64,000 nt of DNA from Eisenbergiella tayi (lineage in GTDB: Bacteria > Bacillota > Clostridia > Lachnospirales > Lachnospiraceae), in NCBI RefSeq assembly GCF_001881565.1, contig NZ_MPDJ01000001.1, positions 988,829 through 1,052,828 on the forward strand, read 5' to 3'. The notes below the pieces were generated by a model, which had not been told where the DNA came from, did not search any database, and worked only from the letters and a program-made list of their open reading frames with translations. A program made the position numbers and the translations under genes. Position 1 is the stretch's first letter; the number at the start of each line of letters is the position of its first letter. This document shows positions 12,314 through 54,442 of the stretch, piece by piece.

Positions 12314-12458
12314 AAATTGGGACAAGCTTTTTTAGCCGCTTGCAAGAATAGATTATATATGATCCGCTCCACTTTTGCAAGTACTTTTTTTATAATTTTC
12401 CATTTTTTTATTTTTCTGCAAAATACGATGGAAAACTCCCTTTTACGGCCTTTTTTCT

Positions 12459-12494
12459 GAAGGCGGCCGCCGGATAACCGGCAGGACCGCCTTC
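12459..12494. other. Strong GC hairpin at the glnN 3' end
   Basis: GAAGGCGG...CCGCCTTC with an inner CCGG/CCGG pairing, just past the glnN stop. There is no T-run on the minus-strand 3' side (A-run instead), so it is not a classical terminator for glnN; it may stabilise the mRNA end. The rest of 12314-12510 shows nothing else. Confidence 0.4.
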
Positions 12495-12510
12495 AAGGTT
12501 GGGGGAACCT

Positions 12511-14622
12511 CTATACTTCAAACATCAGATCTCCGTAGGTAGGGAACGGCCAGTCTGCTTTATCCACCATCATTTCCAGTTCATCAGCAGGAGCCCTCAG
12601 GGCATCCATTGCAGGAATAACCACATCCTTATAGCGGAATGACTGTGCCTTCACATCCTCCATGGCCGATGCTGCCGCTTCTTCTTTTTCCAGGACGGAC
12701 AGAGCTTCCTTCATCTCTGTAAGCTTGCTGTTTACCTTTGCAAGAAGTTCAGACTGTACAACAGGCTCAACGCCCGCCGCCTTTACGTCCAGGACAGTTT
12801 TTGCCAGTTTCTGGCTGTATTTCACTACCGCAGGAATAATCTGCTTTGAAGCCATATCAATCATGGTAAGAGCCTCTATGTTGATGCTCTTTGCATAAGT
12901 CTCGTATATGATTTCTTCGCGGGATTCCAGCTCAGCTCTCGTAAATATATGGAATTTTTCAAACAGCTGTACTGCTTTTTCCGTTGTCAGGGTATTGGCG
13001 GATTCAATCATGGACTTGATATTGGGAAGCCCTCTTTTTGCCGCTTCCTCCACCCATTCATCAGAATAACCATTTCCGTTGAAAATGATTCTGTGATGTT
13101 CAGTCATATACTTTTTAATCAAATCATGTACGGCCATGTCGAAGTCATCCGCCTTTTCCAGAACATCGGCGGCTTCGCAGAAGGCCTCTGCAACAATTGC
13201 GTTAAGTGTCGTATTCGGGCTTGCGATGGAATCTGCAGAGCCTACCATACGGAATTCAAATTTATTTCCTGTAAATGCGAAAGGTGATGTTCTGTTTCTG
13301 TCCGTTGCATCCTTCGGCAGATCCGGAAGTGTGGACACACCTGTCATGAGCTTGCCGCCCAGAAGACAGGATTTGGCTTCACCGGTTTCAATCAGCTGTC
13401 TTACCACGTCTTCCAGCTGTTCGCCCAAAAATACCGAAATAATAGCCGGAGGTGCTTCGTTTGCACCCAGTCTGTGGTCATTTCCCACATCCGCAGCGCT
13501 CTGGCGGAGCAGGTCCGCATGGATATCAACAGCCTTCAGGATACATGCCAGAACCAGAAGGAACTGGATATTTTCATTAGGTGTTTCACCGGGGTCCAGA
13601 AGGTTCATTCCATCATCTGTAGTAATCGACCAGTTATTATGTTTACCGGAACCATTTACACCGGCGAAGGGCTTTTCATTCAGAAGACATCTCAAGCCGT
13701 GACGCTCCGCCACCTTTTTCATGGTTTCCATGATTATCTGGTTATGATCCACCGCGATATTTGCAGTCTCATATATAGGAGCCAGCTCGTGCTGTGCGGG
13801 AGCCACTTCGTTATGCTGTGTCTTGGCCGTTACGCCCAGCTTCCACAGTTCTACGTTCAGATCCTTCATGAAAGCACCGATACGCTCTCTGATAACGCCG
13901 AAGTAATGATCTTCCAGCTCCTGTCCCTTAGGAGCAGGTGCCCCGAACAGGGTACGTCCCGTAAAAATCAAATCCTGTCTCTTTAAGTATTTCTGACGGT
14001 CTACCAGAAAATATTCCTGTTCCGGTCCGACAGAAGCCGTAACCTTGGTAGCCCTCGTATTTCCGAAAAGCCTTACCAGACGGAGTGCCTGCTCGCTTAT
14101 GGCCTCCATGGAACGAAGCAGGGGGGTCTTCTTATCCAGCGCCTCACCTGTATAGGAACAGAAGGCTGTGGGGATACAAAGAATCACACCTGTGGCATCT
14201 TCCTTTAAAAATGCAGGGGAAGTAATATCCCATGCGGTATAGCCTCTGGCTTCAAATGTAGCTCTCAGGCCGCCTGACGGGAAAGAAGAGGCATCCGGCT
14301 CACCCTTAATCAGCTCTTTGCCGGAAAATTCCATCAGCATCTTCCCGTTTTCATCCGGGTGTCCTATAAAAGAATCATGCTTTTCCGCAGTGATGCCGGT
14401 CAGCGGCTGGAACCAGTGGGTATAATGGGTTGCGCCGTTTTCAACAGCCCAGTCTTTCATGGCCTTAGCCACAATATCTGCGGTAGCAGGGGAAAGCTCC
14501 CCTCCCTGGTCCATAACCTTCTTCACCTCTTTGTACACATTCTTAGGAAGGCGTTCTCTCATGGTTCCCAGGTTGAATACATTTTCGCCGAAAATTGCTT
14601 CCACATTCAGAACTTCGCTCAT
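12511..14622 (-). CDS. glnN: Type III glutamine synthetase
   Basis: A large GSIII of about 703 residues, far longer than GSI (about 450). It makes glutamine from glutamate, ammonia and ATP in the cytosol. Family signatures visible: WFQPLTG and EKHDSF near the N-terminus, QEYFLVD, the NEVAPAQHE metal/ATP segment, [12 protein letters not shown], and the C-terminal GSIII-specific helical extension. ATG at 14622 follows GGAGG by 5 bases; the ATG at 14634 overlaps that site, so the protein starts MSEVLN. GSIII is common in Bacteroides and Clostridia and is usually nitrogen-regulated. The gene stands alone with a leader of about 200 nt, which suggests control by transcript structure or by an upstream operator. 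Confidence 0.97.
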
Positions 14623-14896: not shown

Positions 14897-15047
14897 GCTC
14901 CGCATAAGAGGTTACTGTCCACACCCGCGGGTGCGCACAGTAACCATAAGGGTTCTTCATATCATGAGTGGGAAGGAAGCCTGATTTTTCAATTTATATT
15001 ACCACAACTTTTTTCCCCTTGCATCAAAAAAATAAAAAACCTTTCAT

Positions 15048-15336
15048 GCCTTATAACAGTTCGGCCCCTCTCCGTCTGCTGGTCTTGCGTTTCCGGCCTG
15101 CGGTCTCCTTTCCTCCGCGGCCAGCCCCGGCCATGCAGAGGATCCTGTAAGGGGCGTATAAACTCGCCGGTCCTTAGGTTGCGTTCTGTGCAACCTTAGT
15201 ACCGCTGCGAGTTTATCCGAGCGAGAGCGTCCCCTATAAGGACCTCTGCATGGCCGGGGCTGGCAGCGGAGGAAAGGAGACCGCAGGCCGGAAACGCAAG
15301 ACCAGTAGACAAAGAGGGACCGAACTGTTATAAAGC
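15048..15336 (-). repeat. Long palindromic element, family A copy 1
   Basis: Almost the whole 289 bp is one imperfect palindrome centred near 15192. The outer 90 bases (15048-15137) match the reverse complement of 15247-15336 with six mismatches. The central 109 bases (15138-15246) form a structured apex shared with copy 2 at 38631-38740: GAGG/CCTC, AGGGG/CCCCT, ATAAACTCGC/GCGAGTTTAT, CGGT/ACCG and AGGTTGC/GCAACCT capped by a 7-base loop. It overlaps the last codons and stop of trhP (15328). On the minus strand its base is followed within 10 bases by T6AT7 (15028-15041), so it could end the trhP transcript as a giant terminator. Four of six arm mismatches are G.U on the minus strand. Confidence 0.85.
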
Positions 15337-16566
15337 CTTCACTCTTAAAATATCATACTTCTCCGGCTGCTCCGTCAGCTCCAGGTACAAAACCTGCTTG
15401 GGATGCGGCGCGCTTTCCACTTCCGTGCCTTCTTCATCCACGATCCGCAGCACCTCTGCCGTTATATTTCTGCCGTCAGGCTTCATAATTTCAATAGAGT
15501 CACCGGCACAGAATTTGTTTCTCTGCTCTATTCTTGCCAGGCCGTCTTCTCTCAGCTCCCCGACGATGCCCAGATAAATGTATTCATTCACATACGTATT
15601 ATTGTCATATATCTGCGCCTCCTCCGAAGGCTTTCCAAAATAAAAGCCTGTCGTAAACTGACGGTAGGTGCATTTGGAAATTTCAGCCTGATACCACTGA
15701 CGGTTTTGGCGGTATCCTTCCTCGGAAAGGAAATAATCATCAATGGCCTTCCTGTATGTACGGGCCACAGCGGCCACGTACAGAGCCGTTTTCATTCTTC
15801 CTTCTATCTTAAAGCTGTCAATTCCCGCCTCCACCAGCTCCGGAATGTAATCTATCATACACAGATCCTTGGAGTTGAAAATAAAAGTGCCCCTCTCATT
15901 TTCATAGACCGGAAGATATTCTCCCGGACGGCTCTCTTCCATGACCGCATATTTCCAGCGGCAGGGATGGGTACATTCCCCCTGATTGGCATCCCGTCCG
16001 GTGAAATAATTGCTGAGAAGGCATCTTCCGGAATAAGAAATGCACATGGCCCCATGCACAAAGCTTTCAATTTCCATTTCCTCAGGAATATTCTCCCGGA
16101 TTTCCCGGATCTCCGCAAGAGAAAGCTCTCTGGCAGAAACCACTCTTTTCGCTCCCTGTTCCCACCAGAAACGGTAGGTCATATAATTCGTATTATTGGC
16201 CTGGGTTGAAATATGGATTTCCACCTCCGGCCATTCCTGTCTGGCAAGCGTAAACATGCCCGGATCCGATATTATCAGCGCATCCGGGCCAATTTCCTTC
16301 AATTCCCTGAAATATGCCCTGGCTCCGTCCAAATCCCGGTTATGGGCCAGTATGTTCGCCGTCACATAGACCTTTTTCCCATGGCTGTGGGCAAATCTGA
16401 TTCCCTCGGCCATATCCTCCTTGGAAAAATTTTTCGCCTTCGCCCGGAGCCCGAAAGCCTCTCCTCCGATATATACCGCATCAGCGCCAAAAACCACCGC
16501 GGTTTTCAGCACTTCCAGATTGCTTGCCGGAATCAGCAGTTCCGGTTTTCTGTTACTTTCCTTCAT
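15328..16566 (-). CDS. trhP: U32 family tRNA hydroxylation protein (TrhP / YrrO-like)
   Basis: A 412-residue peptidase-U32-family protein. The N-terminal TIM barrel opens ELLIPASNLEVLKTAV; the family cysteine cluster is visible: CISYSGRC and NQGECTHPCRW, then C-terminal EGRMK and a beta-barrel domain. Members of this subgroup (YegQ/TrhP in E. coli, YrrN/YrrO in B. subtilis) make 5-hydroxyuridine at wobble position 34 of tRNAs using prephenate, rather than acting as collagenases. The gene directly follows trmR, whose product methylates that base, which supports this reading. ATG at 16566 lies 7 bases after the trmR stop. The last codons lie inside the family A palindrome. Confidence 0.9.
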   Translation of the reverse strand: MKESNRKPELLIPASNLEVLKTAVVFGADAVYIGGEAFGLRAKAKNFSKEDMAEGIRFAHSHGKKVYVTANILAHNRDLDGARAYFRELKEIGPDALIISDPGMFTLARQEWPEVEIHISTQANNTNYMTYRFWWEQGAKRVVSARELSLAEIREIRENIPEEMEIESFVHGAMCISYSGRCLLSNYFTGRDANQGECTHPCRWKYAVMEESRPGEYLPVYENERGTFIFNSKDLCMIDYIPELVEAGIDSFKIEGRMKTALYVAAVARTYRKAIDDYFLSEEGYRQNRQWYQAEISKCTYRQFTTGFYFGKPSEEAQIYDNNTYVNEYIYLGIVGELREDGLARIEQRNKFCAGDSIEIMKPDGRNITAEVLRIVDEEGTEVESAPHPKQVLYLELTEQPEKYDILRVKAL

Positions 16567-16573
16567 TTCTGAC

Positions 16574-17272
16574 CTACTTTCCGTTTTCTTCCTGATCCGG
16601 CCGCTTTCCTGCACCATCCCCGTCCGGAGAGACCTTCACACTGACGGCCACGCCGTCCCCTACCGGCAGCACGGAGGTCACCAGAAGAGGATTGTGCTTC
16701 AGCTCGTAAAGATATTCCCGCATCCGCGCATGTATGGTTCTGTCCCTTCTGGTCACCGCATACCGGGATTCCAGGATATCCCCGTCCTGCAGAACGTTAT
16801 CCGACACCATCAGCCCTCCCGTCCGAAGAAGACGCAGGACATCCGGCAGGAAATTCATATACTGTCCTTTAGCCGCATCCATGAAAATGAAATCATAGCT
16901 GCCCTTCAATTTCTTCAGCGCCACGGCCGCATCTTCGGCAAGCAGCTGAATACATCCGCTTTTCCCGCATCTCCTGAAATTCTCCAGCGCCACGGGAATC
17001 CTTTTTTCATATTTTTCTATGGTAGTGATCTGACAGCCCTCCGGCGCATACTCACTCATACAAAGGGCAGAAAAACCAACTGCCGTTCCCACCTCCAGAA
17101 TCCGTTCCGGCCTGTTAACCGCTATCAGCGTTCTCAGCAGGCTCTGGGTTTCTGTGCGGATAATCGGCACATTGGTTTCCCTTGCTTCCTTTTCCAGTTC
17201 ATTAAGATATGCCGGATTCCCGGTATCCAGGGAATTGATGAAGGCCGTCAGACGCTCATCCGTTATCATCAT
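16574..17272 (-). CDS. trmR: tRNA 5-hydroxyuridine O-methyltransferase (TrmR / YrrM-like)
   Basis: A 232-residue class I SAM methyltransferase of the O-methyltransferase family 3 fold: EVGTAVGFSALCMSEY is the SAM glycine motif, FIFMDAAKGQY holds the metal-binding Asp, and VSDNVLQDGDI follows as in catechol-type O-methyltransferases. In B. subtilis TrmR (YrrM) converts ho5U34 to mo5U34. ATG at 17272 is 6 bases after AAGGAG; this start overlaps the end of the upstream gene by 17 bases. The order MltG-like, trmR, U32 protein matches yrrL-yrrM-yrrN/O in Bacillus. Confidence 0.88.
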   Translation of the reverse strand: MMITDERLTAFINSLDTGNPAYLNELEKEARETNVPIIRTETQSLLRTLIAVNRPERILEVGTAVGFSALCMSEYAPEGCQITTIEKYEKRIPVALENFRRCGKSGCIQLLAEDAAVALKKLKGSYDFIFMDAAKGQYMNFLPDVLRLLRTGGLMVSDNVLQDGDILESRYAVTRRDRTIHARMREYLYELKHNPLLVTSVLPVGDGVAVSVKVSPDGDGAGKRPDQEENGK

Positions 17273-36383: not shown

Positions 36384-37796
36384 TCAACTTTTCGCCTTGT
36401 TTTGGGCAGAAAAGGGAATTGTTACCGTAAAGCAGCTCCCCTTTCCAGGGGTGCTTGTGAGTTCAATATGTCCTCCGTAGAACTCCACGATATGCTTCAC
36501 AATGGATAATCCCAGACCGGTTCCGCCCATCTTTTTGCTCCGGCCCTTATCCACCCGGTAAAACCGTTCAAATACCCTTTCCTGCTCCTCTTTGCTGATA
36601 CCGCAGCCGTCATCCCTTACCCGGATACACATATCAGGGCCTTCTGATGAAATCTCCACCCATACGTTTCCTCCCGGGTGGTTGTATTTAATGCCGTTGC
36701 TTACCAGGTTCATGATCAGCTCCCGGAGCTGTTTGGCGCTGGCCTCTATGGTGAGAGGCTCACATTCCTTATGCAGTGTCACCTGATATTCCGCGGCAAT
36801 GGGCTCCGCCGATTCAAAAATTTCCGTAAGCAAAGGCGCGATGCGCACCATGGAATAGGTAACCTCCGCCTCTTTGGCCTCCAGGCGGGATATCATGAGG
36901 ATATCGTTGATAAGGTTGGTCATATTGTCCGTTTCCTTCAGTATCCGGGCAATAAAGTCCTTTTTGGTGGCTTCATCCTTCACAAATCCCTGATCCAGCA
37001 GTTCCGCATAGCCTTTAATGGAGGTGATGGGTGTTTTCAGTTCATGGGACGCGTTGCTGAAAAATTCCTGCCGTATCCTTTTTTCCTTCTCCAGACGATC
37101 CATATGTTCCCTGATTTCTGCCGCCATCTTCATGGTAGTCTGCGAAATCACGTTTAATTCCTTGTATTTATACTGCCGGAAGGTAAAACTGGGGTTTTCC
37201 CCCCGCACCTTTACCATTTCCCTGGAGATTTCATTCAGAGGGGTGGTGATGGTGTTGGTAAACCGTACGGCTATTATTACGCTTATTACAAAAGCGATCC
37301 CCGTGCCGAGAAGCAGAAGCGGAAATATCAGTATCATGTAATCCAGCATATTGGTATAAGGTACGGACATACGGATCACATAGGGGCCTTTTCCGGAACA
37401 AATGGCCACATACAGCATACTTCTGCCCAGGCTCGCCGAATAGCGGGATGAAAAACCGGTACCGGTCTTCAATGCTTCCTTCACTTCTTCCCGTTCCAGA
37501 TGGTTTTCCAGACTTTTCGGCTGTTCGATTTCGTTATCGGCCACCACCGTACCATCCTCAGTTATGATGGTAATCCGGGACTGCTCATCCATAGTCGCTT
37601 CATGCAGCCGGAGCAGCTGTTCCTGCAGATCACCCTCGTAATCCAAAGCATAATCCACCACATGCGCAGTATTGATCATGGACTGCCTGTTATTCTTCAG
37701 CATATTTTTCCCGATAAAGTAATAGGAAAAAACACTGCTGACCGCAAGGGCCAGCATGAGTATCGCCACGAACCGGAGTAAGATTGCACGCTTCAT
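36384..37796 (-). CDS. PhoR-like sensor histidine kinase
   Basis: A 470-residue membrane kinase. TM1 (about 8-30), an extracytoplasmic sensor of about 115 residues, TM2 (about 150-175), HAMP (about 178-230), then HisKA with SHELKTPITSIKGY (H near residue 250) and HATPase_c with NGIKYNHPGG, DDGCGIS and GGTGLGLSIV. The layout is that of PhoR/WalK-type kinases. It lies 2 bases after the response regulator. The Na/Pi cotransporter upstream and its Pho-box-like array suggest it senses phosphate limitation; that link is inference. Confidence 0.93.
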   Translation of the reverse strand: MKRAILLRFVAILMLALAVSSVFSYYFIGKNMLKNNRQSMINTAHVVDYALDYEGDLQEQLLRLHEATMDEQSRITIITEDGTVVADNEIEQPKSLENHLEREEVKEALKTGTGFSSRYSASLGRSMLYVAICSGKGPYVIRMSVPYTNMLDYMILIFPLLLLGTGIAFVISVIIAVRFTNTITTPLNEISREMVKVRGENPSFTFRQYKYKELNVISQTTMKMAAEIREHMDRLEKEKRIRQEFFSNASHELKTPITSIKGYAELLDQGFVKDEATKKDFIARILKETDNMTNLINDILMISRLEAKEAEVTYSMVRIAPLLTEIFESAEPIAAEYQVTLHKECEPLTIEASAKQLRELIMNLVSNGIKYNHPGGNVWVEISSEGPDMCIRVRDDGCGISKEEQERVFERFYRVDKGRSKKMGGTGLGLSIVKHIVEFYGGHIELTSTPGKGSCFTVTIPFSAQNKAKS

Positions 37797-37798
37797 CT

Positions 37799-38515
37799 TT
37801 AATTTTCCTTATTATCATTTTCCTGGGGGATCACAAAACGGTATCCCACACTGCGGATAGTCTTTATGTACTTGCTTCCTTCCTCACCCAGTTTCTGGCG
37901 CAGGGTCCTGATATGAATATCCAGCGTCCTTGTTTCAATATCCGCCGAATAATCCCAGAGCTTATTGAGAAGCTCATCCCTCTCAACCACCCTTGTCCGG
38001 TTGTCAATCAAATACATAAGCAGTTCATATTCTTTATAGGTCAGGGAAACCGTCTCCCCGTTCATAACCACTTCTCTGGCCGCCGTATCCACCGCAAGGC
38101 CGCCCATTTTTATCTTGCCGGTCCCATGTACAGGCTGCTGCTCCGCCGAACGCCGGAGAAGGGAACGGATTCTCGCCGCAAGCTCCAGCACTCCGAAGGG
38201 CTTCGTTACATAATCATCGGCTCCCCCGTCAAGGCCCACCACCTTATCGTATTCCTTATCTTTGGCAGTCAGCACAATGATAGGGATATTTTTTATCTCA
38301 TCATCCCTGTTCCTGATAAGCCGGATAGCAGAGAGCCCGTCCATACCCGGAAGCATCAAATCGAAAACGGCAAGATCCGGCTGTTCTTTCCCCACCAGCT
38401 CCAAAGCCTCCTCCGCCGTTTCAAAAGCCAGGACCTGATAGCCATAGCCCTCCAGCGCAATTTTCACAAGATTCCGGATATTCTCATCGTCCTCAATAAC
38501 AAATATTTTCTGCAT
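37799..38515 (-). CDS. OmpR/PhoB-type response regulator
   Basis: A 238-residue regulator: receiver domain (acidic pair EDDEN, phospho-Asp in VFDLMLPGMDG near residue 53, TAKDKEYDK with the conserved T and K), then a winged-helix DNA-binding domain (TRVVERDELLNKLW...TLDIHIRTLRQKLG...VGYRF). It is coupled to the kinase gene. The family A copy 2 element lies between it and the phosphate transporter gene. A role like PhoB/PhoP is likely from context. Confidence 0.94.
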   Translation of the reverse strand: MQKIFVIEDDENIRNLVKIALEGYGYQVLAFETAEEALELVGKEQPDLAVFDLMLPGMDGLSAIRLIRNRDDEIKNIPIIVLTAKDKEYDKVVGLDGGADDYVTKPFGVLELAARIRSLLRRSAEQQPVHGTGKIKMGGLAVDTAAREVVMNGETVSLTYKEYELLMYLIDNRTRVVERDELLNKLWDYSADIETRTLDIHIRTLRQKLGEEGSKYIKTIRSVGYRFVIPQENDNKEN

Positions 38516-38547
38516 GATTTTCTCTCCATTCTGCTCTGCTGTTAAAC

Positions 38548-38823
38548 GTAATGACTCCGCCCTCCCACATCCGGCCAGTGTTCCCCATTTCCTGCCCGGC
38601 GTGCCTCAGTCCCTTCCGGGTGCGGGCAAAGAGGATCCTGTGAGGGCCGTCATAAACACGCCGGTCCTTACGCTGCGTCTTTTGCAGCGTTAGTACCGCT
38701 GCGTGTTTATCCGAACGAAAGTGTGCCCTCTAAGGACCTCTTTGCCCGCGCCCGGAAGGGACTGGCGCACGCCGGGCAGGAAACGGGGAACACAGGCCGG
38801 ATGTGGGAGGGCGGAGTCATTAC
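38548..38823 (-). repeat. Long palindromic element, family A copy 2
   Basis: A 276-bp near-perfect palindrome centred near 38685. Its outer arms (38548-38630 and 38741-38823) match with five mismatches but share no recognisable sequence with the arms of copy 1. The apex 38631-38740 aligns with copy 1 at 93 of 110 columns. Half of the 16 substitutions are compensatory pairs: G-C to C-G in the AGGGG stem, T-A to A-T in the AAACTCGC stem, and G-C to C-G plus T-A to C-G in the terminal stem. It starts 30 bases after the Na/Pi transporter stop and ends 32 bases before the response-regulator start. No T-run follows it on the minus strand, so it is not a simple terminator. Confidence 0.85.
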
Positions 38824-38853
38824 TGTTAAACCCAAGATTCCGTTATCAGTATA

Positions 38854-40545
38854 TCACTCTTCATCCAATGCAGGAAGTCCCTTACCGGCTTCGCTCACCA
38901 CGTAACCGGCTATATTGGTGGCATGGTCGGCTATCCTTTCCAGGTTACTGATCAAGTCAAGGAATACCACGCCGCTTTCGGGCACGCATTTTCCTTTTGA
39001 CAGACGCTGGATGTGCTTTTCACGAAGCTCATCCTCCAGCTTATCCACGTTTCTTTCATAATCCGCTTCCTGCATGGCTTCGCTTGCGCTGGAGAATTCT
39101 CTCGCTTTCAGGGCGCTTTCCAGGGCGAGTATGGTTTCCTCGGCAATCAGCTTCATATCCTTGAAGCCCTTCTTGGAGAAGGTCACCTCGTCTTTACGCA
39201 TGTTATCTGCCAGCTCGGCGATATTTTCCGCATGATCTCCCACTCTTTCCAAGTCGCTGACCGTATAGAAAAGGTTCTTGATCACCTGATGCTGTTCCTC
39301 GGTAAGTGACAGATTGTCCACTTGTACCAGAAAGGCCGTCATTATCTTTTCCATATCATTGATGGTTTTTTCGTTCTGAAATACGGAACGTATGGTATCT
39401 TTATTTCCTGTTTCAATACCCTCCAGGGCTTTTTTCAGGTTTTCCAGGGTAAATTGTCCCATTACGTTGACTTCACCGAGAACGGCGTCCATGGCGAAAG
39501 CAGGATTTCCCAGAATACGTTCATCCAGATGTCTGCGCATTTCTCCCGCGGCACTGATTTCCGGCTGTTCGTCCTCTTTGTTATCTCTTATTATATAGGT
39601 AGAAAGCCGTACCAGCTTATCTGCAAAGGGAATGAGCATAAGTGTATTGAGAACATTGAATATGGTATGGAAAATTGAGATTTCCACACTGTTTATGGTG
39701 GACGCTCCCCAGGCCTTATTAAAGCTGAACAGGATAAACATGATAATTCCGAAGACCACCGCTCCTATTACGTTGAAGAGAAGGTGGATACAAGAGGCCC
39801 TTTTTGCATTTTTTCCTGCTCCCGCGCTGGAAAGAAGGGCGGTTACGCAGGTTCCTATATTCTGGCCCAGCGTAATAAATACGGCTGACTGCCAGTTCAC
39901 CACACCATTGAGGGCCAGTGTCTGAAGTATGCCTACCGAAGCGGAAGAGCTTTGAATGATGGCAGTAACCACGGTTCCTGCCAGGATAGCCAGCACGGGA
40001 TTTTTACCGAGTACCGCGAATGCCTTCGCAAAAACAGGGGCTTCACGATAGGGTTTGATTGCATCAGACATAAAAGAAAGGCCGATAAACAGAATACTGA
40101 AGCCAACCAGGATTTCCCCGATTTTCTTCTTTTTCTCACTTTTTGTAAAAAGGACAAGAAATGCACCGATGCCCAGCAAAAGAGGGGCAAAAAATTCGGG
40201 CTTCATAACGCTGCCCCACTCGCTCATGGATACGATCCATGCGGTTATGGTGGTACCGATATTTGCCCCCATAATAACGCCCACGGCCTGGGTCAGTTCC
40301 AGCATTCCGGCATTAACAAAGCCTACTACCATGACTGTTGTGGCGGAAGAGCTCTGTATAATGGCAGTTATCCCCGCTCCTACGAGAATAGCCATCAGCC
40401 TGTTTTTTGTCAGAAAGCTCATCAGCTTCTGCATTCTTCCACCGGCAGATTTCTGAAGGCCGTCGGCCATGATATTCATTCCATAAAGGAACATGCCGAG
40501 ACCTCCGATGAATGAAAATAACATTCCTACATCATTAATAGACAT
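38854..40545 (-). CDS. Na/Pi cotransporter family protein with PhoU-like domain
   Basis: A 563-residue protein. Two Na_Pi_cotrans repeats in the membrane part carry the QSSSATT and QSSSASV signature motifs (about residues 63 and 197). The cytosolic C-terminal 210 residues form a PhoU-like helical bundle (DLERVGDHAENIAE and NLERIADHATNIAG repeats). It should import phosphate with sodium; the PhoU part couples it to signalling. Upstream lies an 11-bp-phased TGTAAA array that looks like a Pho box, and the PhoPR-like pair follows, consistent with one phosphate-responsive unit. Confidence 0.93.
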   Translation of the reverse strand: MSINDVGMLFSFIGGLGMFLYGMNIMADGLQKSAGGRMQKLMSFLTKNRLMAILVGAGITAIIQSSSATTVMVVGFVNAGMLELTQAVGVIMGANIGTTITAWIVSMSEWGSVMKPEFFAPLLLGIGAFLVLFTKSEKKKKIGEILVGFSILFIGLSFMSDAIKPYREAPVFAKAFAVLGKNPVLAILAGTVVTAIIQSSSASVGILQTLALNGVVNWQSAVFITLGQNIGTCVTALLSSAGAGKNAKRASCIHLLFNVIGAVVFGIIMFILFSFNKAWGASTINSVEISIFHTIFNVLNTLMLIPFADKLVRLSTYIIRDNKEDEQPEISAAGEMRRHLDERILGNPAFAMDAVLGEVNVMGQFTLENLKKALEGIETGNKDTIRSVFQNEKTINDMEKIMTAFLVQVDNLSLTEEQHQVIKNLFYTVSDLERVGDHAENIAELADNMRKDEVTFSKKGFKDMKLIAEETILALESALKAREFSSASEAMQEADYERNVDKLEDELREKHIQRLSKGKCVPESGVVFLDLISNLERIADHATNIAGYVVSEAGKGLPALDEE

Positions 40546-46179: not shown

Positions 46180-46497
46180 GCACGGAGGCGCTTTTCCTCC
46201 ACGGCCCTGGCGAATTATGTCCCCGGCGGGTGGGATTGGTGGTGCTGGGTGCAGTTGAGGAAATGGGATATTACTAACTGTTCTGTGTGCCCCATATGCT
46301 GTCGGCGCGGCTTGAACTCCTCACGCGCCGACTTTCAGTCGTTCGCGTTCGTCAGACAGCGCCGCTAGGGGCGGACAGTATATGGGGCACACAGAGCAGT
46401 AAGTAATATCTCCATTTTCTCATATGCACCCAGCTCCACCAATCCCACCCGCCGGGGACATAATTCGCGGGGCCGTGGAGGAAAAGCGCCTCCGTGC
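46180..46497 (+). repeat. Long palindromic element, family B copy 1
   Basis: A 318-bp imperfect palindrome centred near 46339. Left and right outer arms (about 46180-46303 and 46374-46497) match over more than 110 bases. Sequence shared with copy 2 (54065-54442) is limited to GGGATATT(A/T)CTAACTGTTCTG on the left, CAG(A)(G/A)CAGTAAG on the right, and the apex (GCGGC, TGAACTCCTC, GTCGT, ACAG, CGCCGCTA, GCGGAC). Between these the inner arm (TGTGCCCCATAT here, CATTTCCTGTC in copy 2) is different but still paired. Several left/right differences are G.U pairs on the plus strand and none on the minus strand. It lies between a terminator (46523-46567) and the aminotransferase promoter, so it is not part of either neighbouring transcript. 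Confidence 0.85.
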
Positions 46498-54064: not shown

Positions 54065-54442
54065 GTTCCCCCTTCACCCCCGCGGGCCCTCTGCACGTCC
54101 CTTTCCCTTCGGCCCCTTCCTGCGCCTTCCCTTCTCCGGCTGCTTTGGCCCGGGTGAGATGCTGGCGGCTGATTCAGCCTCAAAAAAGGGATATTTCTAA
54201 CTGTTCTGCATTTCCTGTCTGTGGTCAACGCGGCTGAACTCCTCCCTTTGGTCGTCAAACAGTCGCCGCTAAGAGCGGACCACAGACAGGAAATGCAGAA
54301 CAGTAAGAAATAATCACCTTTTTATCCGATGAACCTGCCGCCAGCATCTCACCCGGGCCGGAGCAGCCGGAGAAGGGAAGGCGCAGGAAGGGGCCGAAGG
54401 GAAAGAGGGCGTGCAGAGGGCCCGCGGGGGTGAAGGGGGAAC
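54065..54442 (+). repeat. Long palindromic element, family B copy 2
   Basis: A 378-bp palindrome centred near 54253, the longest of the four. The outer arms (54065-54168 and 54339-54442) match over about 100 bases with only a few changes. The region next to the conserved TAACTGTTCTG motif is unpaired (internal loop), then the inner arm CATTTCCTGTCTGTGGTC pairs perfectly with its partner. The apex matches copy 1. Substitutions between arms (three seen) are all T opposite G on the plus strand, that is U.G wobble if the plus strand is RNA. A plus-strand terminator follows at 54454-54496. No strong plus-strand promoter is evident. It sits between tcdA and the second HPr-like gene. Confidence 0.85.

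Follow-up and report, generated by a model that had tools for sequence, protein, structure and literature searches.

MITEs and snap-back elements of bacteria, such as RUP and Correia/NEMIS, are short and intergenic, occur in many copies and carry no gene. Bacterial MITEs have terminal inverted repeats, a target duplication and a partner insertion sequence, and elements of the IS66 family start with GTAA and produce 8-base duplications. RUP and Correia/NEMIS are named as such elements in the excerpts of PMC2267715 used here. The bcr1 repeat of the Bacillus cereus group, about 150 bases long, is mobile and intergenic; its copies share a predicted secondary structure and number 11 to 130 per strain (excerpts of PMC6542083 and PMC2267715).

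The window is a 64,000-nucleotide stretch of the Eisenbergiella tayi genome, and its positions 38548-38823 form a 276-bp near-perfect palindrome without a protein gene, copy 2 of a repeat termed family A. The palindrome has a fold z-score of -25 against dinucleotide shuffles, and none of 200 shuffles reaches its stability. It had been placed between a phosphate transporter and its two-component genes, a location that the identities of the neighbouring genes confirm. The features of the window that concern the element are as follows.

36384-37796, minus strand: histidine kinase, neighbour of copy 2
37799-38515, minus strand: response regulator, neighbour of copy 2
38540..38547, no strand: left target-site duplication TGTTAAAC, identical to 38824-38831
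38548..38630, plus strand: left arm of family A copy 2, outer end GTAATGACTCC, 78/83 complementary to the right arm
38631..38740, plus strand: conserved tip of copy 2, from alignments of 40 own-genome and 69 multi-genus copies and from single-strand folds; its parts are a junction stem, a long stem with the conserved internal loop CGCCGGTCCTTA / TTAGTACCGCTGCG, and a small hairpin with a GAAA loop
38741..38823, plus strand: right arm of family A copy 2, outer end GGAGTCATTAC
38824..38831, no strand: right target-site duplication TGTTAAAC
38854-40545, minus strand: Na/Pi symporter with a PhoU domain, neighbour of copy 2
15053..15331, plus strand: family A copy 1, ends ATAACAGTTCGG / CCGAACTGTTAT, the right end with one mismatch further in
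46180..46497, no strand: family B palindrome, same architecture, different tip
54065..54441, no strand: family B palindrome, second copy

The arms of copy 1 are complementary at 80 of 85 positions, which like the 78 of 83 in copy 2 is about 94%. Its flanks, CATGCCTT and AAAGCCTT, are alike at 6 of 8 bases. The end of copy 1 provides, at 15328-15330, the stop codon of a minus-strand ORF (15328-16617) whose best NCBIfam model is TrhP, below the model cut-off, so that insertion may have altered the end of that protein.

The start and end given for copy 2 in the sequence-only reading are the exact borders of the element, and TGTTAAAC is identical at 8 of 8 bases on the two sides. The stretch 38548-38823 is an inserted element with an 8-base target duplication, a point missed by that reading. 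G012, G002, G011 and G001 retain both flanking genes but lack the element, and the gap between the matched blocks there is 49, 69, 136 and 37 bases, respectively, against 302 to 380 in the window; the spacers in these four genomes are too diverged to display a single target copy. G010 and G004 matched on the two-component side only and are uninformative on the empty site. Most copies in the own genome show no target duplication. Direct repeats of at least 7 bases border 6 of the 39 own copies, compared to about 0.7 expected from re-paired flanks, with two of these six being palindromic end sequences that prove little. Called genes flank both sides in 36 of the 39 loci, and another called ORF overlaps the element in eight.

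The end motif GTWACWGTTCA is more frequent than the reversed pattern in the own genome (42 to 10), G012 (169 to 8), G002 (147 to 10), G008 (42 to 2), G001 (34 to 4), G010 (20 to 2) and G011 (10 to 4). Sixteen distinct loci, part of them chosen for end pairs and none for flanks, have two ends that match each other at no fewer than 16 of 20 positions, and in nine of these loci the flanks share 7 or 8 of 8 bases. Loci with both matching ends and matching flanks include the family A copies L018 (decayed) and L025 in the own genome, L043 in Eisenbergiella porci (the same place as L112), and L051, which comes from a bin with Robinsoniella-like copies. A GTWAC-type end pair is found in only 9 of the 56 own copies tested, some of them doubtful, and in five of the nine the flanks agree at 6 or more of 8 bases. 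Among the matches listed in the scan of named genomes, three of 87 copies have GTWAC-type ends and 84, some of them from the same genus, lack them. The ends of the window copy, GTAATGACTCC, fit GTWACWGTTCA by eye at 6 of 11 positions.

L231:494-2379 in the congeneric genome G012 is a 1886-base insertion sequence with GTWACWGTTCA-motif ends, GCAACAGTTCAGACGGCCC / GTAACAGTTCAGACAGCCC. Its unbroken gene encodes a transposase of 507 aa that matches PF03050 at 1.7e-17 (64.2 bits, cut-off 23.1) and lies below the NCBIfam IS66 cut-off (NF033517) at 130 versus 180 bits. The element is flanked on both sides by CTAATTGGA, a repeat of 9 bases rather than 8. These results concern the end family and not the window copy directly. 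IS66-type genes also lie between similar ends in G018 and G042, which belong to two other genera, with no duplication visible; no such end pair flanks the transposase homologues of G010 and G002 or a second homologue in G018, and no homologue of the L231 transposase is found in the own genome at E 1e-10. The best account, though not a proven one, appears to be that the window copy owes its movement to the L231 transposase or a related one.

Several other candidates were considered. The only PF03050 element of the own genome was rejected as the mover, as its ends are GTAAGCGGTG, unlike GTWACWGTTCA. End pairs in the own genome that lie about 1.1 and 3.8 kb apart were rejected as autonomous copies, with enclosed genes that look host-type. 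L200 was examined as a half element and is read instead as a deletion derivative, because its 8-base flanks are identical. Contigs 19, 37 and 69 of G010 (L205-L207) have identical 130-base starts ending GGGTGTGAACAGTAAC, which look like a further multi-copy insertion sequence with GTWACWGTTCA-type ends that was broken by assembly. The interior of this element was not found; among 13 genomes the 130 bases matched G010 alone, and they matched nothing in plasmids or phages. The window also has a small hairpin at 14911-14944 (GTTACTGTCCACACC..GCACAGTAAC), the ends of which resemble the GTWACWGTTCA motif.

Family A is abundant in its own genome and widespread in the Lachnospiraceae. A DNA search of the own genome gave at least 41 matches (40 of 146 candidates scored), and a covariance model built from 69 copies gave 146 at E <=0.01 (150 of 881 candidates scored). 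The own copies are put at about 140, because the 146 include at least three shadows on the opposite strand, and the weakest matches are open to doubt. With stricter filters than those used for the own genome, the model matched 90 of 200 sampled Lachnospiraceae genomes, own included, and 5 of 398 genomes sampled across the phylum, four of which are Lachnospiraceae, again including the own genome. G585, from another class of the phylum, has five weaker model matches (E ~1e-7), which could mean that the element was transferred or that these are a distant version of it. Named genomes scanned with a pattern gave at least 99 stretches; among the matches listed almost every title names Lachnospiraceae or one of its genera (Eisenbergiella, Robinsoniella, Mediterraneibacter, Roseburia and Lachnoclostridium), while one bin titled Clostridiaceae contributes several and a single match is titled 'uncultured bacterium'. 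The core pattern has no matches in viral contigs, and no tip match was found in plasmids. At the Rfam gathering score the window gives a tRNA alone, and the element has no match; the best weak hit is raiA, on the minus strand, at 16.7 bits against a threshold of 101.3. The open literature searched, which excludes most subscription journals, yielded no description of the element. Tandem tip copies occur in G137, on contig 59 near 125297-125725 and on contig 21 near 12432-12906, with spacings of 164 and 187 bases.

The tips of copies 1 and 2 were compared by global alignment from starts 15138 and 38631. The agreement reported in the sequence-only reading, 93 of 110 columns, is reproduced, with 16 substitutions and one gap, as are the three substitutions in the terminal loop. 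The compensatory pairs described there are real two-sided changes, although they number five (10 substitutions) and not four: a G-C to C-G change in the junction stem, a G-C to A-T change in the small hairpin, and T-A to A-T, G-C to C-G and T-A to C-G changes along the long stem. One of the other substitutions lies in the GNRA-type loop and two lie elsewhere. The blocks that had been named invariant are common to both copies, but over 40 own-genome copies GAGGATCCTGT varies; each position of CGCCGGTCCTTA and TTAGTACCGCTGCG is invariant or at least 90% alike in the same set. The outer arms, described as unrelated between the copies, are nearly so, but a trace of homology is left, since of 500 shuffles only 4 and 2 reach the local scores of the arms compared between copies.

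Fold predictions give the conserved tip the shape of a three-way junction. A redundancy filter kept 71 of 109 sequences for a wider comparison, of which 69 were aligned. L055 and L118, which have insertions in the 3' part, were left out of alignment A2; copies in L081, L096 and L099 whose 5' side is odd were also dropped. In the 69 aligned copies, which span several genera, the helices are swapped and CGCCGGTYCTT and TAGWACCGYTGCG are constant. This constancy arises partly by selection of the sequences, because the scan pattern required most of these letters; in copies found by BLAST, for which the pattern was not used, the letters are nearly unchanged in the own genome and altered in some relatives. 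All 40 own copies have a small-hairpin loop that fits GNRA; in the wider set the last three letters of this loop, taken by column, fit in 67 of the 69 copies. A GNRA loop is a preference of RNA. The consensus RNA fold of the 40 copies includes the small hairpin, and the DNA fold of the plus strand predicts it, but the RNA fold of copy 2 by itself lacks it. Folded as RNA, the two strands have roughly the same stability.

The same tip is found outside the family A arms. In 27 copies among the matches listed (L050-L148), mostly from Robinsoniella-like bins, the stem starts CGATACACAG and ends CGTCC and is followed by a C-rich stretch, and this asymmetric foot indicates another frame that carries the same tip. 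Tipless elements of 70 to 166 bases, such as L196, L208 and L211, have the same ends as the GTWACWGTTCA loci, often with 8-base duplications, and since these have moved, the tip appears to be dispensable for movement. Together with the different tip of family B, the other frames and the tip-free movers suggest that the tip behaves as cargo. The family B tip is conserved around CGCGGC..GAACTCCTC and CGCCGCTAAG.GCGG. Further copies of family B are L165:1793-2118, L014:550-932 and L195:63-450, the last of which ends in GTTACAGTTCACTCCC and so has the end motif of some family A copies.

The arms diverge faster than the tip and retain their complementarity. In 39 copies (L027, at a contig end, was excluded) they contain 3437 Watson-Crick pairs, 28 G.T pairs, 39 A.C pairs, 47 other mismatches and 33 gap positions. 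Comparisons of related copies, 79 in number and not independent of each other, show 888 two-sided changes that keep Watson-Crick pairing, 188 one-sided changes (49 to G.T, 87 to A.C and 52 other) and 47 that are otherwise. The mismatches summed over the tip helices are 24 G.T versus 25 A.C, a weaker test than that of the arms. The small hairpin was omitted from it, since the search admitted only Watson-Crick and G.T pairs there, and in the long stem it is weakened by 163 other non-pairs, largely at positions without a fixed pairing register. As a strand test, the comparison of G.T with A.C gives no preference in either the arms or the tip helices.

Selection on RNA pairing tolerates G.U and would leave G.T well above A.C on the transcribed strand, whereas the pattern seen is the one predicted if one palindrome arm is copied from the other during replication. 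The absence of a G.T excess suggests that the arm pattern stems from DNA template switching and not from selection on RNA pairing. Arm-to-arm template switching likely makes most of the two-sided changes, and the same process, producing two-sided changes at the DNA level, has been inferred for RNA genes (PMC8794818, in excerpt). Over the 40 own copies two-sided changes occur at 27 of 45 pairs, 14 of which belong to tip helices and 13 to the arm base, and none of 500 shuffles has covariation as high, with the structure taken from the same alignment. The family thus has the strong pair covariation that the sequence-only reading anticipated, but the case made there for RNA selection as its source is not supported as argued. 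Since template switching itself yields two-sided changes, covariation alone is weak proof of a working RNA, and the R-scape test proposed for the family is expected to be positive whatever the element does.

The orientation of the copies relative to genes was determined with a simple gene caller. Tandem contexts contain 46 sense and 38 antisense copies, split into 13 sense and 17 antisense for own copies and 33 sense and 21 antisense for scanned copies (among the matches listed); an earlier count of own copies gave 9 sense and 17 antisense. Another 31 copies lie between divergent genes and 16 between convergent genes, and the core is inside a called ORF in 21 of 137 copies. This near-even orientation argues against a role in neighbouring messages. 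In the window, the plus strand, which has the GNRA-type loop, is antisense to both adjoining genes. The sequence-only reading suggested that the element may uncouple expression of the transporter from that of the two-component genes. A search for intrinsic terminators (a GC stem and a T run) gave nothing above chance, with one site versus 0.5 expected, inside the tip and on the strand opposite the genes.

The locus is probably best explained as a MITE moved in trans by an IS66-type transposase, with arms kept by template switching and a tip that forms a three-way junction. The 276-base palindrome would be a non-autonomous snap-back element inserted between the 8-base repeats, and an IS66-type transposase acting in trans would have moved it. 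Template switching between the arms would keep them complementary, and the conserved tip, with its predicted junction, would ride as cargo. The element might instead be a cis-acting structured RNA of the nptA-phoP transcript, with a regulatory or 3'-end function and maintained by selection on RNA pairing. Its strong covariation, very stable fold and conserved unpaired residues are consistent with such an RNA, as is the GNRA-type loop in 40/40 and 67/69 aligned copies, yet four relatives are without the element at the same site and the loop-bearing plus strand is antisense to both window genes. Given also that orientation shows no clear bias (46 sense versus 38 antisense overall, 9 versus 17 in the own copies) and that G.T is no commoner than A.C in the helices, this explanation is very improbable.

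The function of the tip is a separate matter from its movement. It presumably does something else, most likely as a folded RNA in a read-through transcript. Tentatively, the tip could be a previously undescribed, Lachnospiraceae-wide structured RNA module, with a three-way junction, a GNRA arm and a conserved internal loop, that sits in unrelated mobile hairpin frames, serves host or element in a job other than movement, and owes its covariation largely to template switching. A tip that acts as folded single-stranded or cruciform DNA, for instance as a protein-binding or replication-related signal, seems rather unlikely. It would account for Watson-Crick pairs kept with G.T equal to A.C, for the lack of a clear strand preference relative to genes, and for a small hairpin that appears in the plus-strand DNA fold and not in the single RNA fold of copy 2; the loop, however, obeys the GNRA rule of RNA, the consensus RNA fold of 40 copies contains the hairpin, and template switching could by itself account for how the helices are paired. 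Bacterial genomes tend to lose long palindromes, and the tip may merely be an inert spacer against cutting or deletion of the palindrome, conserved by descent and ectopic conversion. Several contigs of the own assembly do end within about 200 bases of a copy, which is in keeping with such a spacer, but loop sequences that stay constant across genera while the helices change, both in the 69-copy set, where the scan pattern fixed most loop letters, and in copies found by BLAST without the pattern, and the presence of the tip without transposon ends make a spacer improbable. On contigs 7, 10, 11, 12, 17, 19, 20 and 22 of G000 the contig end is no more than about 300 bases away from a family A copy, and the palindromes thus seem to break assembly.

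The locus matters in several ways. The tip is present in 90 of the 200 sampled genomes of the family and in about 140 own copies, yet Rfam gives no match to it in the window and the literature searched yielded no description. Since its strong covariation was apparently made by template switching, the family is usable as a natural control for covariation-based RNA inference. The end motif and the IS66-type partner provide a concrete route to a mobility test.

Family A resembles MITEs such as RUP and Correia/NEMIS in being short, intergenic, multi-copy and gene-free, with terminal inverted repeats, a target duplication and a candidate partner insertion sequence. Unlike RUP and Correia/NEMIS, it is nearly all palindrome, its arm sequence is very different between copies, and it has a structured tip that is conserved across a bacterial family. 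The bcr1 repeat is likewise mobile, intergenic and predicted to be structured; it differs in that its mobility is tied to a TTTAT motif and it is confined to one species group, and the long variable arms and IS66-type ends of family A are not mentioned for bcr1 in the excerpts of PMC6542083 and PMC2267715. The likeness to the IS66 family lies in the PF03050 domain carried by L231, and the difference in a transposase under the NCBIfam cut-off and in a GTWACWGTTCA motif that is unlike the GTAAGCGGTG ends of the own genome's PF03050 element. Template switching at the hairpins of RNA genes, as described in the excerpt of PMC8794818, gives the same two-sided changes without G-U intermediates; there it concerns RNA genes, and here a bacterial mobile palindrome.
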